This document shows, in pieces, positions 4,290-18,593 of a stretch of 33,976 nucleotides of DNA (its first letter is position 1; every line of letters begins with the position of its first letter). Position numbers and translations under genes: made by a program. The notes under the pieces are model-generated. The model saw nothing but the letters and a program-made list of their open reading frames with translations. It did not search any database and was not told the DNA's origin. Source of the DNA: Alicyclobacillus kakegawensis NBRC 103104 (GTDB taxonomy: Bacteria; Bacillota; Bacilli; Alicyclobacillales; Alicyclobacillaceae); contig NZ_BCRP01000025.1 of NCBI RefSeq assembly GCF_001552655.1, forward strand, positions 1 to 33,976, in the 5' to 3' direction.

Positions 4290-5267
4290 TTATTCCTGTG
4301 TGTTCCGGCGCCAATGGTGCCAATGCTCATGTTGAGCCTGGGCGGATTTCAGAAGCCCTGTCAGCCGTTCAGGGTCGGCGTCCGTCAAAGCGGCTGTAAA
4401 TTCTCGCAAGGCTTCACTGATACGCTCAAGATGAGCGAGCACCGCCGTCCGATTGGACAGCAGCGTGGAAACCCAAAACGTGGGCGGCGACGCAGCCAGC
4501 CGCGTGACATCGCGGAACCCGGGACCGGTCAAGCGGGACCACAGGCGGGGATTGGCCCCATTATCGACAACGGCCTGTCCGTAGGCCGCCATCACAGCCA
4601 GCGAGGCGAGGTGCACACCGTGACTCACCGCGGCCATGGCGCGGTCATGTTCCACGGCCGAAGGCACCTCCACGATGTTCGCGCCCATAGCCGCCAGCAT
4701 CGGCTCGATTCGCGCCAGCGCCGGCCATCCCCTCATCACCAGCCAGGCCTCGCCGTCGAACAAATCTGGGCGGGCGGCCGTCGGGCCCGAACTCGCGGCT
4801 CCGGCCATCGGATGGGTCGGAGCGAAACGCTCGGTGATGCCAAGCCGCTGGGCAGCTTCCACCACCGGTTCTTTCACGCTGCAGACGTCCATCACGCATT
4901 CGGCCCTCTCACCTACCGTGGCCAACAAACGGCACGCTGCTTCGACCGGCACCGCGAGAACACCCACATCGAACGATTCGTTCGGCACCGATGGCAGCAC
5001 ATCGTCAAAAACCAGACGCGTTGCGCACCCAGTCGTCTCCCTGGCAAGGTGGCCTTCCCGGCCGGCGGCGGAACAGGCAAGTTCACGCGCCTGCTCTTGA
5101 TGCTGCGCGTTCGTATCCACGCCCACGATACGCGCATCTGGGTGGAGCTGACGCCAGGCCATGGCCAGGGAAGCCCCAATGAGCCCGCAACCAACAATCA
5201 ACAAGGAGACAGGCCAACGGGCAGGCCTGCCTCCTGTTTCCATCCGGTTTCCCTGCCGTTCAAGCAT
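4290..5267 (-). CDS. tyrA: Prephenate dehydrogenase
   Basis: It oxidises and decarboxylates prephenate to 4-hydroxyphenylpyruvate with NAD(P), in tyrosine synthesis. The 325-residue protein has an N-terminal Rossmann motif GCGLIG at about residues 26-31, the strand-end VGVDTN, the segment [10 protein letters not shown], and [10 protein letters not shown] with the catalytic histidine, followed by the helical dimerisation domain. It stops without an ACT domain, unlike the longer Bacillus subtilis enzyme, so feedback by tyrosine through ACT is not expected. The ATG at 5267 overlaps the aroF stop by eight bases (translational coupling); an ATG at 5243 with AGGG upstream is an alternative start. 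Last gene of the aro-trp operon, before a strong terminator. Confidence 0.93.
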
Positions 5268-6294
5268 TTCCCGCAAGGGCTTCCTGGGCTGGATTGAGCG
5301 CTTGAGCGATCCGGCGCACCTCAGCGACCATGCCCGCAAACCGGTCCAGGGTCAGCGATTGTGGGCCGTCGGACAACGCCTCTGCGGGATTAGGGTGAAT
5401 CTCCACAATCACTCCATTCGCTCCCGCTGCGATGCCGGCCCGCGCCATCGCCGTAACATAGCGCCAGTTCCCCACGCCGTGGCTGGGATCCACCAGGATG
5501 GGCAGATGGGACAGGTGCTGCACCACCGGTACAGCATTCAAGTCCAGTGTGTTGCGGGTGTAGGTTTCAAACGTCCGAATGCCACGTTCACAGAGAATGA
5601 CATTCGGGTTGCCTTCGGCCAGGATATATTCGGCGGACATCAACCATTCCTCAATCGTTGCCGACAATCCCCGCTTCAGCAGCACCGGCTTATCGGTCTT
5701 TCCGACAGCCTTTAACAGCGGAAAATTCTGCATGTTGCGGGCGCCAATCTGAAGGACATCCACGTATTCCAGAAACATCGGGATTTGGGCAATTTCCATC
5801 ACTTCGGATACAATCGGCAGCCCGGTTTGTTCACGGGCCTCAGCCAAATAGCGGAGACCGGTCTCCCCAAGGCCTTGGAACGAATATGGGGATGAACGCG
5901 GCTTGAAAGCTCCGCCGCGCAGCATGTGTCCTCCGACCTGTTTGACAAACTGCGCAATCTCAATGATCTGATCTCTCGACTCCACGGAGCACGGGCCGGC
6001 AATCAGGGTACACTCGCCGCCGCCCACCACATGGTTGCCTACCTGCACCAAGGTGTCCTGGGGGTGAAAAGCGCGGTTGGCCAGCTTGAAGGGCTTACTT
6101 ACCGTCACCACTTTTTCTACGCCTTCCATGGATTCAACAGGCAATTCCAGCACTCGCTCCCGTTGTCCAATAATCCCGATGATAGTCTTCTCCTCACCTT
6201 GGGACAGGTGTACGCCCAACCCTTTGCTTCTCAGCAAACCAGCCACCGCGTCAATCTGAGACTGGGTTGCGTCCTCTTTCATAACGACTATCAT
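5260..6294 (-). CDS. aroF: 3-deoxy-7-phosphoheptulonate (DAHP) synthase
   Basis: It condenses phosphoenolpyruvate and erythrose 4-phosphate to DAHP, the first step of the shikimate pathway. The 344-residue protein has an N-terminal ferredoxin-like/ACT-like domain (about residues 1-70), as in the Thermotoga-type DAHP synthase, then a KDO8P-synthase-type barrel with AGPCSVES near 99, [15 protein letters not shown] near 127, [16 protein letters not shown] and DPSHGVG. The regulatory domain is known in relatives to mediate feedback by aromatic amino acids; here that is inferred. The ATG at 6294 has AGGAGGG upstream. It sits between trpA (11 bases) and tyrA (overlap), so the entry enzyme of the whole pathway is co-transcribed with the tryptophan genes, in the position where Bacillus subtilis has hisC. 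Confidence 0.95.
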
Positions 6295-6305: not shown

Positions 6306-7199
6306 CTATCTCTGTGCCTGCGCGGCATGTAAATCTGGGCTCGCGAGAGCAGACGCCAGTTCCGCAGCGAATGAGCGGATGCGCCCGACAATCGCCTCCC
6401 GGCTCGATGTGCTGACACCCTCCGCTTCTGACTGTCGATGTCCCGTCGGGGCGCTCGCACCTCGCGTCTCCGCCAAGGCCTCCTCGACGCGGCGTACAAA
6501 GGCGCTGCCGACAATCACCCCGTCCGCATACGCTCCGACTTTCCGGGCCTGCAACGGCGTACTCACCCCAAACCCGACCGCAGCCGGAAGGTGAGTGTGC
6601 CGGCGTACGGATGCCACCAGTTCCTGCACCTGGGTCGACAGGTGCTTTCGCTCCCCTGTCACGCCCAAAGACGAAACACAGTAGACGAATCCCCGGGCCG
6701 ATTCGCAGATCTGGGCCACGCGCCCTTCTCCCGAGGTCGGCGCGACCAACGGTATCAGCGCCAGCCCAGCGGCGTCCGCCAGTTCCCGCACCACGGCACT
6801 CTCTTCAAACGGCAGGTCGGGAAGTATCACACCGTCAGCGCCTGCGGCATGGGCATCCCGGAAAAACTTATCTGGGCCGTACTGCAGGACGGGGTTGATG
6901 TAGCTGAACAACACAAGTCCCGTCTGCTCATGTCGTCTGCGCAGCGTCGCGCAGACATCAAAGGCGGCCGGCAATTGGAACCCGCCGCGCAGACTCCGGA
7001 CCGCCGCCGCTTGAATCACAGGTCCGTCCGCCAGCGGATCGGAATACGGTATTCCAATTTCAACTATATCCGCTCCAGCGTCAATCACTGCATCAAAAGC
7101 GCAAATCGACGTCTCCAAGTCCGGATCGCCAGCTGTGAGAAACGGGATGAGTGCGGCTTGTTTCGATGCTTGACGAAAGGCGTGTTCAATTCTCTCCAT
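6306..7199 (-). CDS. trpA: Tryptophan synthase alpha chain
   Basis: It cleaves indole-3-glycerol phosphate to indole and glyceraldehyde 3-phosphate, passing indole to TrpB. The 297-residue chain shows PFLTAGDP, then [18 protein letters not shown] with catalytic Glu47 and Asp58, [26 protein letters not shown], and the phosphate-binding VGFGVSTP and GVIVGSAFV. It is about 30 residues longer than usual because of a low-complexity insert (around [15 protein letters not shown]) before the last helix. The ATG at 7199 overlaps the trpB stop by 14 bases; the frame is open further but the alpha-chain N-terminus fits this Met. Confidence 0.95.
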
Positions 7200-8469
7200 G
7201 CTGCCGCTCCTCCCTTTCCAGTCTGGCAATCTGCTCCACATCTTTATCCCCGCGTCCGGATAAGCACACCACCAACAGGTGGTCTTTGGGAAGCTGCGGG
7301 GCTATGCGGGCGGCATGGGCCACGGCGTGGGCGCTCTCCAGGGCCGGGATGATGCCCTCCGTCTTGGACAAGAGGTAAAATGCGTTCAGCGCCTCTTCAT
7401 CCGTGACGGGAACGTAGGTAGCCCGTCTTGCATCATGCAGCCAGGCATGCTCGGGACCTACGCCCGGGTAATCCAGGCCGGCAGAAATCGAGTGCGCAGG
7501 GGTGACCTGCCCCCACTTATCCTGCAGAAGATACGTCCGAGAACCGTGCAACACGCCAGGGCGGCCTTGCCCAATGCTCAACGCGTGCAGTCCGGTGTCG
7601 GCGCCCTTTCCCGCGGCTTCGACGCCAACAAGCCGCACACCTGTATCCGGGATAAATGGGTAGAACATGCCCATAGCATTGCTTCCGCCCCCGACACAAG
7701 CGACAACCGTGTCTGGCAATCGGCCTTCACATTCCAGAATCTGCCTGCGAGTCTCATCTCCGATAATCCGTTGAAAATCGCGGACGATACGCGGATACGG
7801 ATGCGGTCCGACCACAGATCCGATGATGTAATATGTGTCCTCCACATGGGAGACCCAATGACGGATGGCCTCGTTTGTGGCATCCTTCAAGGTCCGGGTA
7901 CCGGTGGAGGCCGGAACCACCTCGGCCCCCAGCATCCGCATACGAAAGACGTTGAGGGCCTGCCTCTGCATATCCTCTTCGCCCATGAACACCGTACACT
8001 GCAGTCCAAACCGGGCCGCCACGGTCGCCGTAGCCACACCGTGCTGGCCGGCGCCGGTCTCCGCGATGACACGCTTCTTGCCCGTATACACGGCCAGCAG
8101 CGCCTGGCCAATGGTGTTGTTGATCTTGTGGGCTCCCGTGTGGTTCAGGTCCTCGCGTTTCAGGTAAATCTTTGCCCCCCCGAGGTGATCCGTCAGCCGT
8201 TCCGCATAGTATAAAGGCGTCGGTCTACCCGCGTATTGGCGCAAATAATAGGACAAATCCGCCTGAAACCTTGGATCCTGTATCAGCCGTTCATAGTCCT
8301 GCTCCAGTTGATGCAGTGCGGTCATCAAGGTCTCCGGAACGTAACGCCCGCCATAATCGCCAAACCGCCCGTTTGCGTCAGGAAGCGACGTGCCCGCCGC
8401 CGGCTGGGCCGCCGTTGCCGGTGCAATCCTGTCTTTGGCCGCTTGCGTACCGGTCTGTTGTGTCATCAC
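7186..8469 (-). CDS. trpB: Tryptophan synthase beta chain
   Basis: This PLP enzyme joins indole and serine to make tryptophan. The 427-residue protein has [40 protein letters not shown] with the PLP lysine at about position 115, [26 protein letters not shown] for the phosphate, and a C-terminal CLSGRGDKD. An N-terminal extension of about 30 Ala/Thr/Gln-rich residues precedes the usual start of the family. Translation may start at the GTG at 8469 or the ATG at 8466, four to seven bases after the trpF stop, with GGCGGTGA as the ribosome site overlapping the trpF end. Part of trpDCFBA. Confidence 0.96.
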
Positions 8470-8473
8470 TGGT

Positions 8474-9193
8474 TCACCGCCTGCTTAGATTCTGCACCAA
8501 ACCCTGTCGCCTCGCGGCCAATCGCAACGCCTTCATCAGGGAATCGATACGAGCGCGCGACTTGCGCCCATTCACCTCAACGCCGGACGAGACGTCCAAA
8601 CCGTCGGGCACAAAGCACGCAAGGCATTGCTCGACATTTTCAGGGCTGATGCCTCCAGCAACCCACAACGGTGGCCGCGTGCCGTGAGCGCCCAAGGCGT
8701 CCGCCAAGCGCGGCAGCATGCTCCAATCAAAGCGGCGACCGTGCCCGCCGGTGACCGAACCCGCAGCAGCGGGCGGGGCAGCGTCCAATAAGATGCCGTC
8801 AATCGTCCGCAGATAGGGGCGAATCTGGTCCGCTATGACGGTGGCCGCGTCCCCATCGACCGTCTCCGGTACGGAGAACGATTTCCACACGGTATACCCG
8901 CAACTCTTCAGACGCCGGCAAAAGTCAGGTGTCTCGCGGCCGTGGAGCTGCACGTGCCGGATCTGGGCTTCGTCGCAGATCTGTCGAACGCCGTCAAACT
9001 CCTCGTCGACCACCACTCCTACCGGGGTGCAGGAAGCGGGCAACGACCGGACCAGCGCGGGCACCTGGCGGGGATGGACATAGCGGCGGCTTGCCGGAAC
9101 AAAGATAAACCCCACATAAGCAATCCGTTCAGTATGTGTAAAGGAAAGGTCGTCGCCCGGCTGGATACCACATATTTTCACCCGCACGTTCAC
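8474..9193 (-). CDS. trpF: Phosphoribosylanthranilate isomerase
   Basis: It isomerises N-(5-phosphoribosyl)anthranilate to the carboxyphenylamino deoxyribulose phosphate, the third step after anthranilate. The protein begins with VKICGI carrying the catalytic cysteine, followed by [37 protein letters not shown] with the second catalytic Asp, and [11 protein letters not shown]. At 239 residues it is about 30 longer than typical, mainly a basic C-terminal tail. I start at the GTG at 9193: it overlaps the trpC TGA as GTGA, and the VKICGI strand follows directly. The open frame further upstream runs inside trpC and has no family similarity. Confidence 0.93.
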
Positions 9194-10011
9194 AGGCTGG
9201 CACCGTCCCTTGCCAACGAAAGGCGAGGAACCTGGAGTTGAGCTATCAGTTCCCGGACACCTTCGGCGCTTGACTGCCGCATCAACGATTCCCCCACAAG
9301 CACCCCGCACACCCCGCTGGCGGCCAACCGTTCCGCATCCTCGCGGCAGCTCACGCCGCTTTCCGAAATCGTCGGAATCTCGGGTGGAACCGCTTGGGCC
9401 AAACGCAGCGTAGTGTTCAAATCAACGACGAACGTGTGCAGATTGCGGTTGTTAATGCCCAACACCGACGGCCCAGCGGCCAGCGCCACGGGCAGTTCCT
9501 CATCTGTATGCACCTCAATCAGCACATCCAGGCCCAAATCCTTTGCGTACTGGGAAAGTTCCAGCAGACGATCCGCTGTCAACGCGGCGACAATCAACAG
9601 CACCGCATCTGCTCCAGCCGCGCGCGCTTGTTCAATCTGGGTTTCGTCGATGATGAAGTCTTTGCGCAGCACGGGCAATCGCACCGCATCGTGGACTCTC
9701 CGCAGATCCGCGATACTACCCTGAAAATACCGCTCATCCGTCAAAACGGACACGGCGGCTGCACCGGCCTGTTCATATAGGTTCGCAGTAGCCACTGGGT
9801 TGAAATCCACCGCGATTTTGCCTTTGGACGGGCTTGCTTGCTTGACTTCGGCAATCACTGCCAGGGAGCCACCCGCTTGCAGAGCTGCAGCAAATCCACG
9901 GCATGGCGGCAGACTACCCAGGTCGGGCGCTTGCCCGAGGCGGCTTCGGCGGCGCAGTTCAGCGACTTCTTCCCTTTTGGTTTCAAGTATGCGATCCAAA
10001 AACGTCGTCAC
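9190..10011 (-). CDS. trpC: Indole-3-glycerol phosphate synthase
   Basis: It closes the indole ring with loss of CO2 and water. The 273-residue barrel shows IAEVKQASPSKG (residues 53-64, usually AEIKRASPSKG; the essential lysines are kept), VLTDERYFQGS, PVLRKDFIIDETQI with the catalytic lysine, IEVHTDEEL, LGINNRNL, TISESGVS and GVLVGESLM. It starts with GTG at 10011, which overlaps the trpD stop as GTGA, so its translation is probably coupled to trpD. Single-function protein, not fused to TrpF. Confidence 0.95.
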   Translation of the reverse strand: MTTFLDRILETKREEVAELRRRSRLGQAPDLGSLPPCRGFAAALQAGGSLAVIAEVKQASPSKGKIAVDFNPVATANLYEQAGAAAVSVLTDERYFQGSIADLRRVHDAVRLPVLRKDFIIDETQIEQARAAGADAVLLIVAALTADRLLELSQYAKDLGLDVLIEVHTDEELPVALAAGPSVLGINNRNLHTFVVDLNTTLRLAQAVPPEIPTISESGVSCREDAERLAASGVCGVLVGESLMRQSSAEGVRELIAQLQVPRLSLARDGASL

Positions 10012-11048
10012 TGGGCTACCTCCTCCGCCTCGGACGCCATGGTGGCGCCAATAAAGCGAACCAGGGTGGCCGTGGCCGCGCCCTCATCCACACATTGCGC
10101 GGCCATCCGCACGCCTTCGCCAATACTCGACGCGATTCCGGCGATATACAGAACGGCCCCGGTGTTGTACAGGACCACATCCCGCGGCGGCCCCGCTTGT
10201 CCCGACAGAATGCCGCGTATCAACTCAGCGTTTGCAGCGGCGTCACCGCCGATAACCGTCTCCAACGGGGCGCGGGTCAGGCCTACGTCCTCCGGATTCA
10301 GCGTGTATCGGTGCCATTGCCCGTGCCGGACTTCGGCTACCAACGACTCACCGGCCAGGGACAATTCGTCCAATCCGCCGGCGCCGTGGACAACCAAGGC
10401 ATGTTCAGTGCCTAACTCCACCAAGGCCTGTGCCACTTTATCGACCAGGTCGGCACGAAAGACGCCAATGACCTGCCGTTTGGCTCCGGCTGGATTGGTC
10501 AGCGGCCCGAGAATATTGAAAATGGTACGAAAACCAAGCTCACGACGGGTCTCGGCTGCGTGTCGGAGGGCCGGATGATAACTGGGAGCAAAGAGAAAAC
10601 ACAGGCCGCTCACTTCCAAACAGCGCAGCGCCTCCGCTTCGTTCAGGTCCACATGGGCACCCAACGCCGACAGGACATCGGCACTGCCGCTGCGGCTGGA
10701 AACCGCCCGGTTGCCGTGCTTGGCCACCCGCGCCCCGGCGGCCGCGGCAACCACCGCCGACGCTGTAGAAATATTGAATGTCCCCACGCCGTCGCCGCCA
10801 GTGCCACAAGTGTCCACGACATCAAAAGGCACCCGCAGGCTGTTGCTGTGGCTGCGCATGGCGCGCGCGAAGCCGACAATCTCGTCCACCGTTTCCCCAC
10901 GTGCTGCCATCGCCGACACCAAGGCCGCCGTATGCACCGGGGACAGCTGTCCTTGCATCAATTGATCCATCATACGTTCAGCCGTTTCGGCATCCAGCGT
11001 ATGGCCTTCCGCCACTTGCCTCAGGACCCCTTGAACCAACTCACTCAT
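10008..11048 (-). CDS. trpD: Anthranilate phosphoribosyltransferase
   Basis: It joins anthranilate to PRPP. The 346-residue protein has the N-terminal helical domain (AERMMDQLMQGQLSP), the PRPP loop VDTCGTGGDGVGTFNIST, KHGNRAVSSRSGSADVL, the metal/substrate segment FLFAPSYHPALRH, RTIFNILGPLTNPA and VVHGAGGLDELS. I start at the ATG at 11048; AGGAG lies ten bases upstream. The frame remains open to 11222 but that part is the leader RNA. This is the first gene of the tryptophan block: no trpE or trpG precedes it. Its ribosome site is embedded in a regular GAG triplet array, so translation may be repressed there and, by coupling, repression may extend to trpC and trpF. Confidence 0.95.
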   Translation of the reverse strand: MSELVQGVLRQVAEGHTLDAETAERMMDQLMQGQLSPVHTAALVSAMAARGETVDEIVGFARAMRSHSNSLRVPFDVVDTCGTGGDGVGTFNISTASAVVAAAAGARVAKHGNRAVSSRSGSADVLSALGAHVDLNEAEALRCLEVSGLCFLFAPSYHPALRHAAETRRELGFRTIFNILGPLTNPAGAKRQVIGVFRADLVDKVAQALVELGTEHALVVHGAGGLDELSLAGESLVAEVRHGQWHRYTLNPEDVGLTRAPLETVIGGDAAANAELIRGILSGQAGPPRDVVLYNTGAVLYIAGIASSIGEGVRMAAQCVDEGAATATLVRFIGATMASEAEEVAQ

Positions 11049-11076
11049 ATTCACTCGTCTCCTCTCATCTCGTCTC
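11044..11076 (-). promoter_or_regulatory. GAG triplet array over the trpD ribosome site (candidate TRAP site)
   Basis: On the minus strand GAG occurs at 11076-11074, 11071-11069, 11066-11064, 11061-11059 and 11056-11054, each separated by exactly two bases. One more at 11046-11044 is in register (gap of seven, that is 2+3+2). The array covers the trpD Shine-Dalgarno sequence and the start codon. TRAP binds (G/U)AG triplets spaced 2-3 bases and blocks ribosome sites such as that of trpG in Bacillus subtilis. No mtrB gene is in the window, so TRAP binding is inferred. Confidence 0.5.
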
Positions 11077-11133
11077 CGGGAGCAAGCCTGCTGGACGGAT
11101 CTCACACGCAGACTCGATTCCAGAATCCATCGG

Positions 11134-11198
11134 GTCCGCAGTACCTGGATATGCTCAAATCCGCAGGCAGTGAGCCAGTCGCTCGCCAACCTGCGGAC
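11134..11198 (-). promoter_or_regulatory. Mutually exclusive hairpins in the trpD leader
   Basis: Three minus-strand segments compete: GTCCGCAGG (11198-11190) can pair through TCCGCAGG with CCTGCGGA (11167-11160), enclosing an inner GAGC/GCTC stem, or through GTCCGCAG with CTGCGGAC (11141-11134). Both pairings are eight perfect base pairs. Neither is followed by a T run, so any switch would act on translation or pausing rather than intrinsic termination. Pairing was found by eye, not folded. Confidence 0.45.
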
Positions 11199-11232
11199 AC
11201 AACCTCCAGAGACTGCGCGCAAGTCAGGACGG

Positions 11233-11280
11233 TCAACCGGATCGGATCCGAAATGCCCATCCGTTCTCCAACAAGCTCAT
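11233..11280 (-). CDS. Possible 15-residue leader peptide
   Basis: A short frame ATG...TGA encodes MSLLENGWAFRIRSG with one Trp codon in the middle. GGAG-rich sequence lies just upstream, but that sequence is also the triplet array, so the ribosome site is ambiguous. It lies between the presumed trp promoter and the alternative hairpins, the usual place for a leader peptide. A single Trp codon is weak support, and the frame may be chance. Confidence 0.22.
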   Translation of the reverse strand: MSLLENGWAFRIRSG

Positions 11281-11306
11281 CTCCACTCCGCTCCACAGCT
11301 AACCTC
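11266..11306 (-). promoter_or_regulatory. (G/T)AG triplet array in the trp leader (candidate TRAP site)
   Basis: Minus-strand triplets: GAG 11306, TAG 11301, GAG 11293, GAG 11288, GAG 11283, GAG 11278, GAG 11268 (first base given). Gaps are 2, 5, 2, 2, 2 and 7 bases. The array starts about 40 bases after the predicted transcription start, comparable with the TRAP site of the Bacillus subtilis trp leader, and lies in the equivalent place after aroH. It has seven triplets, against eleven in Bacillus. Candidate only. Confidence 0.45.
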
Positions 11307-11353
11307 ATATTACATGACAGACAATAGCGAAACTCTCAATCAATGATGTGTAT

Positions 11354-11382
11354 ATGATATGTGCTATCAGTTTCTCCGTCAA
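11354..11382 (-). promoter_or_regulatory. Promoter of the trpDCFBA-aroF-tyrA block
   Basis: On the minus strand TTGACG (11382-11377) is separated by 17 bases from TATCAT (11359-11354). It begins about 35 bases after the aroH stop. The start site should be near 11347, giving a leader of about 300 bases before trpD. Bacillus subtilis also has a trp promoter just after aroH. Confidence 0.65.
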
Positions 11383-11416
11383 CCAAACAAGTGCCCGCTT
11401 GGACGTCCACGCCGAC

Positions 11417-11788
11417 CTATTGAGCCAGGTCGGGACGCAGTTGGACCGCGGCCCCCAGATAGACGTGTTCCATTTCGGCTTGAGTCCTCTCCGTATTGAC
11501 GTGCACGAGTACCCGGATGCAGCGCTCCAGCCCGCCGGCCACGGCCACTTCACTCGCGCACATCAAAGGCACCCATTGCCACCCCGGCAAGCTGCGCACC
11601 GCCCGGGCGGGAAAGCACGCAGTCAGATCGGGGGTCATGGTCAGCAGAACGCTGACCACGTCTTCCGGCACAAGGGCGTTCCGTTTGGTGATCTCCGCCA
11701 TCAGTTCATGGGTCGCCGTCAGGATGGCCTCCGCGGAGTCTTCCGCAACGGTGATGGCACCCCGAATGCCTCGAACGGTCGTGGCCAT
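11417..11788 (-). CDS. aroH: Chorismate mutase, AroH type
   Basis: It converts chorismate to prephenate, the branch towards tyrosine and phenylalanine. The 123-residue protein matches the small Bacillus-type enzyme along its whole length: VRGIRGAITV with an active-site arginine, EDVVSVLL, TPDLTACFPARAVR, GWQWVPLMCASE with conserved Cys and Glu, GGLERCIRVLVHVNT with the second arginine, and the end HVYLGAAVQLRPDL. AAGGAGG lies upstream of the ATG at 11788; the longer open frame to 11944 runs into aroB and is not used. It follows aroB by about 50 bases. Confidence 0.95.
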   Translation of the reverse strand: MATTVRGIRGAITVAEDSAEAILTATHELMAEITKRNALVPEDVVSVLLTMTPDLTACFPARAVRSLPGWQWVPLMCASEVAVAGGLERCIRVLVHVNTERTQAEMEHVYLGAAVQLRPDLAQ

Positions 11789-11838
11789 GGCCCCATCCTC
11801 CTTGATTCTCCTGGGAAAAATATTTTGCACAACGCCGT

Positions 11839-18517: not shown

Positions 18518-18593
18518 GCGGATGTAGTTCAATTGGCAGAGCGTCAGCTTCCCAAGCTGAATGTTGCGGGTTCGAGTCCCGTCATCCGCTCCA
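18518..18593 (+). tRNA. tRNA-Gly (anticodon CCC)
   Basis: A full cloverleaf of 76 bases including an encoded CCA. The acceptor arms GCGGATG and CATCCGC pair, with a G-T-tolerant D arm (TAGTTCAATTGGCAGAG). The anticodon stem TCAGC/GCTGA holds the loop TTCCCAA, and the T arm GCGGGTTCGAGTCCCGT is standard. The anticodon CCC reads GGG glycine codons. It has its own promoter and terminator on the plus strand, opposite to the neighbouring genes, and sits at the border between core-like and accessory DNA. Confidence 0.95.

Follow-up and report, generated by a model that had tools for sequence, protein, structure and literature searches.

Two separated arrays of TRAP-type triplets before trpD in Alicyclobacillus kakegawensis suggest a two-part control site

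Introduction

TRAP (MtrB) is a textbook case of RNA-based control that is known mainly from Bacillus, where the aromatic supraoperon joins aroH to the trp genes. The same junction is found in Alicyclobacillus kakegawensis NBRC 103104, on contig NZ_BCRP01000025.1 of assembly GCF_001552655.1 (positions 1 to 33,976, hereafter the window), and raises the question of how the trp genes that follow it, beginning with trpD, are controlled. An earlier note on this DNA, made from its letters, had described two arrays of (G/T)AG triplets between aroH and trpD and had proposed that a leader site is combined with a block at the ribosome site of trpD, which comes first among the trp genes here. This proposal is supported by, and fits, what was found in the window, the genome and its relatives, and it is likely that TRAP acts at trpD through a two-part site, repressing trpDCFBA and the genes behind it when tryptophan is plentiful. 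TRAP control of trpD is well supported, as judged from the sequence, the conservation of the arrays and the presence of mtrB; binding at trpD, the direction of its effect and the order in which the arrays would be bound are predicted.

Results

The leader array consists, in the direction of transcription, of GAG (11306-11304), TAG (11301-11299) and five further GAG triplets (11293-11291, 11288-11286, 11283-11281, 11278-11276 and 11268-11266), the first triplet of the array lying about 40 bases past the likely transcription start. After an insert of 189 bases follow the five GAG triplets of the ribosome-site array (11076-11074, 11071-11069, 11066-11064, 11061-11059 and 11056-11054), each gap being exactly two bases, and the register then runs on through an AAT (11051-11049) into a sixth GAG (11046-11044), which uses the G of the trpD ATG (11048-11046). 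The earlier note had counted seven leader triplets at mostly two-base gaps, starting about 40 bases after a good promoter, and five evenly spaced GAG triplets with one more in register over the start codon; the first count is exact and its description of the gaps fair, the promoter is a near-consensus one (Table 1), and the second array is correct to the base. Shuffles would give 0.4 such promoter sites, and the promoter block is kept in the three genus members, namely the genome under study (G000), its nearest relative (G001) and a third member (G002).

TRAP itself is encoded in the genome (mtrB, 128 bits), and mtrB was matched in 55 of the 61 genomes searched from the class and in 34 of 37 from the family. 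In an alignment with TRAP chains of solved structure, the protein retains the counterparts of Glu36, Lys37, Lys56 and Arg58, whose role in RNA contact is described in passages of PMC4027176; an encoded TRAP with its RNA-contact residues, as expected for a TRAP regulon, is thus present. Anti-TRAP (rtpA, PF15777), for which the earlier note had suggested a search together with mtrB, was not found in this genome. It was matched in 5 of the 61 genomes, three of them above the cut-off (G011, G028 and G036). As a side observation, anti-TRAP is patchy, standing above the family cut-off in only 3 of 37 family genomes.

The trpD leaders of 35 of the 37 family genomes, of 11 genomes of the sister family and of 4 more distant ones were read, and each was compared with 100 first-order shuffles. 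For 33 of the 35 family leaders no more than 3 of 100 shuffles reached the longest chain of triplets, and for all 11 sister-family leaders no more than 5 of 100; in coding DNA further upstream the longest chain never exceeded three (45 checkable). Of the 35 family leaders, 30 have a distinct leader array of four or more triplets, and 32 have three or more triplets at the ribosome site (33 with an upstream start in G016). None of the 11 sister-family genomes has a ribosome-site array of this size; what they have instead is a leader array together with a terminator. In G012 both halves are fused into one run of nine triplets at the ribosome site. Within the genus, the leader array is kept in both other members and is among the best-kept blocks of the alignment. 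The triplets are kept in the trpD leaders of relatives, a check that the earlier note had named, and conserved (G/U)AG triplets at gaps of two to three bases in the leader, as expected for a TRAP regulon, are found. The layout of two arrays, as read from these sequences, is common to the related bacteria and unlike the textbook Bacillus version. An enlarged ribosome-site array was considered as a mark of the genus and rejected, the three members having 5, 3 and 6 triplets against 2 to 5 in most others and 9 in G012.

Arrays of this regularity are rare in the genome. In its 3.42 Mb, a run of five (G/T)AG triplets separated by exactly two bases is seen only twice, at the trpD ribosome site and before trpG. 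A run of four gives 6 matches at 4 places, of which two belong to trpD (leader and ribosome site), one to the leader of trpG-trpE and one to the ribosome site of a gene for an amino-acid permease. All four places precede genes of tryptophan synthesis or the permease, so that regular arrays before many unrelated genes, the outcome that would have spoken against the earlier note, were not seen. The longest chain in the trpD leader was matched in 0 of 100 first-order shuffles of the same 412 bases. A control with the pattern reversed (3 and 15 matches) was poor, GAG being palindromic in its letters so that all-GAG arrays were counted too, and the same flaw spoils the reversed-pattern column of the shuffle comparison. 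Across 22 genomes chosen by us from the 37 of the family, 88 four-triplet places at two-base gaps were counted, of which 27 lie within 400 bases before trpD (in 20 of the 22, G030 and G034 missing), 11 before trpG (in 11 of the 22) and 2 before the permease; the other 48, about two per genome, lie elsewhere. By our own estimate, two stray places in a genome of about 4 Mb would put one in a given 400 bases roughly once per ten thousand genomes.

The insert between the arrays carries a hairpin beginning with TCCGCA or TCCACA/TCCACG in all 23 long-leader family genomes examined. In the 20 of these outside the genus, 5 to 7 of the 8 bases after the hairpin are T, against 3 in G000, 3 in G001 and 5 in G002, the last value overlapping the low end of the other 20; within the genus the hairpin itself is thus well conserved and the T run is not. 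These sequences indicate that a terminator-like attenuator lies between the arrays in most family members and that its T run has been lost in this species. A terminator hairpin with a T run is found in 20 of the 23 leaders and not here, and the roughly 11 triplets in one site at gaps of two to three bases that mark a Bacillus-type attenuator are represented by 7 triplets with gaps of up to 7. No terminator-like site was found in 10900-11700 by a scan that uses a fixed consensus and misses factor-dependent ends. The compact-leader genus described below and G012 are without this hairpin. In the shared fold of 17 sequences, two-sided changes occur at 5 of 11 stem pairs; covariation of the family hairpin was not accepted, however, as the term for it, at -0.2, is close to zero and a number of inner pairs are broken. 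Independent losses of the attenuator were likewise rejected, since three changes are needed on a tree that covers 30 of the 35 genomes, but its firm branches force only one. A T-box or another Rfam element was considered as the control of the trp genes and rejected: the 12 T-boxes of the genome all lie on contigs other than those of trpD (C25) and trpG-trpE (C30), and Rfam gave no match at the trpD leader.

In one related genus the trpD leader is short, and the gap between its arrays forms a single helix-closed unit in 11 of 11 genomes, with 0 to 3 unpaired bases in 8 of them and an energy below that of base shuffles in 8 (P ≤ 0.018), its stability not being exceptional in G030, G035 and G036. 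The trpG gap of the same genus forms the same closed unit in all 10 genomes from which it was extracted (11 tried; P ≤ 0.043). In G020, G026, G029 and G032 one base stands on each side between hairpin and triplet, by which the two-base TRAP gap is kept across the stem. Closed hairpins with few free bases are nevertheless common in shuffles (0.1-0.56 per gap). Three of the compact genomes show seven one-sided changes that keep a pair and no two-sided ones, and their stem has 95% of cells paired, against 29-59% with a slid partner. The longer insert of the members of the present genus is itself well folded (energy z -2.5 to -4.9 against shuffles).

The genes trpG and trpE belong to another operon, which has its own TRAP-type leader comprising five triplets, a terminator-like hairpin with eight consecutive T and three GAG at the ribosome site; the trpG product fits an anthranilate/aminodeoxychorismate glutamine amidotransferase. 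In the free fold of the trpG leader the array pairs with the 5' arm of the terminator, and the terminator forms once the array is held unpaired (G000 and G001), a fold of the antiterminator kind; in G002 the terminator hairpin forms in both folds. The trpG leaders of the family are less uniform, 25 of 35 being beyond shuffles at 0.05. A further site, L126 1485-1518 (G000:C1:99055-99072, minus strand), lies before an AA_permease-family gene and has four GAG at two-base gaps and a fifth after three bases, over the Shine-Dalgarno sequence. This array is kept in G001 and, as three triplets plus one, in G002, and it is absent from the more distant homologues in G006 and G017. The permease gene is a predicted TRAP target by its sequence and perhaps a tryptophan transporter.

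Two sites in other genomes were also noted. L269 (G012:C22:1988-2025, minus strand) consists of eight triplets at two-base gaps, preceded by two more, and is immediately followed by an open frame of about 255 amino acids, and L266 (G002:C20:28013-28030, minus strand) has four triplets at the start of a frame of 506 amino acids that resembles a membrane protein.

On the minus strand the window carries aroC-aroB-aroH, the gap with the arrays, and then trpD-trpC-trpF-trpB-trpA, the gene for 3-deoxy-D-arabino-heptulosonate 7-phosphate (DAHP) synthase and tyrA (Table 1); the genes that we take to be aroC and aroB were named from their translations. There is no trpE in the window, and the genome's only match to the TrpE N-terminal family lies on another contig, directly behind trpG. 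Elsewhere the genome has a second, distant trpD-like gene (G000:C21:42303-43331, 29% identity), and the window has a tRNA gene on the plus strand (18518-18590).

Table 1. Features of the trpD locus in window coordinates.
Feature	Position	Strand	Basis
aroH, chorismate mutase, precedes leader	11417..11794	-	TIGR01796
Promoter TTGACG-17-TATCAT of trpD transcript	11354..11382	-	10/12 consensus positions
Leader array, seven (G/T)AG triplets	11266..11306	-	gaps 2, 5, 2, 2, 2, 7
Hairpin matching family attenuator hairpin (TCCGCA...TGCGGA)	11159..11198	-	only 3 T in next 8 bases
Ribosome-site array, five GAG, exact two-base gaps	11054..11076	-	sequence
Shine-Dalgarno AGGAG inside ribosome-site array	11059-11063	-	
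Sixth GAG, in register, overlaps trpD ATG	11044..11046	-	sequence
trpD, anthranilate phosphoribosyltransferase	10008..11048	-	TIGR01245, 413.9 bits, cut-off 199
trpC	9190..10011	-	
trpF	8474..9190	-	
trpB	7186..8469	-	TIGR00263
trpA	6306..7193	-	TIGR00262
DAHP synthase (aroF type)	5260..6294	-	TIGR01361
Prephenate dehydrogenase (tyrA type)	4290..5339	-	best matches are prephenate dehydrogenase models, below their cut-offs

Discussion

These data allow a model to be proposed for the control of trpD. When tryptophan is plentiful, TRAP would bind the trpD mRNA and repress trpDCFBA together with the DAHP synthase and tyrA genes behind. The seven-triplet leader array, 190 bases upstream, would be its first landing place as the RNA leaves the polymerase; TRAP would next cover the ribosome site, blocking translation of trpD and, by polarity, expression of the downstream genes. 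The second array, whose triplets lie over both the Shine-Dalgarno sequence and the start codon, would stop ribosomes directly, as in Bacillus trpG and trpP. Since this species and its closest relative no longer have the T run, a direct ribosome block is probably the main control output in both.

Several observations weigh against TRAP control through the two arrays. The trpD leaders of G035 (0.12) and G036 (0.21) are not beyond shuffles, and the trpD ribosome site of G003 and that of G018 hold just two triplets each. No match to mtrB was found in G016 (97% complete) despite both trpD arrays, which would reflect either an assembly gap or loss of TRAP, nor in G014 (62% complete) or G018 (82% complete), and the match in G026 is partial and contains a stop. 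An antiterminator pairing between array and hairpin (RNAduplex) was not supported at trpD, native pairs being no better than swapped ones in 14 genomes (Wilcoxon P 0.81). A trpE-like refolding that hides the Shine-Dalgarno sequence was rejected, since this sequence did not become hidden when the leaders of the three genus members were folded with their leader triplets kept unpaired (its mean unpaired value going from 0.11 to 0.38, from 0.38 to 0.34 and from 0.29 to 0.22). Finally, a closing helix that would join the arrays in this genus was tried and discarded, the end distance being no better than in shuffles (P 0.73-1.00).

As to how the two arrays would work together, it is quite possible, if somewhat short of an even chance, that a single TRAP ring binds the two arrays at once while the intervening RNA is folded out, in a bipartite site of which each half alone is too short. 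Stable TRAP binding needs about seven or more triplets according to the passages of PMC4027176, and ribosome-site arrays of 3 to 6 triplets, including the 5 + 1 found here, fall short of it; because the ribosome-site half lies below this limit, one ring on both halves is favoured. The helix-closed gaps of the compact genus, at trpD and at trpG, and the fusion of both halves into one run in G012 point the same way. However, the 189-base insert of this species does not bring its ends closer than shuffles do, the closed geometry of the compact gaps is common in shuffles, only their stability being exceptional and not in every genome, and the stem in three of the compact genomes has no two-sided changes. 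The broader idea, that the ring acts as an RNA-looping repressor with the same layout at trpD and trpG family-wide and with attenuator hairpins coming and going in the loop, may be held with similar reserve.

Alternatively, and with some doubt, there may be two TRAP events, the leader array still serving as a transcription attenuator while a second or like ring separately blocks the ribosome. By the limit given in PMC4027176, as far as its passages go, seven triplets may suffice for binding, and the hairpin is well conserved in the genus, though not its T run. Passages of PMC3913778 further report that TRAP is able to stop transcription in vivo even where no working attenuator exists, provided that an A+U-rich stretch comes next, so that a transcriptional effect may occur here as well. 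Against this scenario stand the negative scan for terminator-like sites, with its limits, and the low T count after the hairpin here and in G001.

It is unlikely that only the ribosome-site array functions, the leader array and the hairpin being remnants of an attenuator that has been lost. The T run, gone in G000 and G001 and thinned in G002, would fit such a decay, as would the absence of the hairpin from the compact genus and G012, but the leader array is too well kept in the genus alignment, and five GAG triplets alone fall under the binding limit reported in the passages of PMC4027176. That purine-rich ribosome sites resemble TRAP sites by chance is very improbable, for although Shine-Dalgarno sequences are GAG-rich and four triplets in a row stand at the start of a transporter gene in G002 that looks unrelated, the genome-wide rarity and placement of the arrays, their conservation in the family and the presence of mtrB speak against it.

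If the proposed two-part TRAP control of trpD holds, TRAP control would have shifted between stopping transcription and blocking translation within one family, the protein remaining unchanged; two distant stretches of a single mRNA may be held by a ring protein, and the permease site would predict a new TRAP target. The compact sites split by a hairpin are short enough for direct testing in vitro. No description of TRAP sites of this kind in Alicyclobacillus or Alicyclobacillaceae was found in the open-licence literature; TRAP control is known as a kind, and the split layout appears to be new.

With the leader attenuator of Bacillus subtilis trpEDCFBA, as presented in passages of PMC3913778 and PMC4027176, the locus shares TRAP, (G/U)AG triplets at short gaps after the promoter and a hairpin downstream. 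However, that leader has 11 triplets according to the same passages, and here there are 7 with two wide gaps; trpE follows it there and trpD here; and here no T run follows the hairpin and an antiterminator pairing is unsupported. The Shine-Dalgarno sequence is predicted to be bound directly here, and not hidden through refolding as for B. subtilis trpE. With the TRAP translation block of Bacillus trpG, trpP and ycbK, as described in parts of PMC11255114 and PMC4347634, the locus shares triplets over the ribosome site and an expected direct block, but here the site has five or six triplets and the rest of the possible site lies 190 bases upstream on the same mRNA. The trp leader of B. halodurans, in the account given in passages of PMC3184956, has 19 triplets and a 12-subunit TRAP, and in both cases the total of triplets exceeds the need of one 11-mer; those triplets are described there in the leader, whereas here they are split into a leader and a ribosome-site group. 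Compared with the Bacillus models, both arrays thus stand on one mRNA, and neither has 11 triplets.
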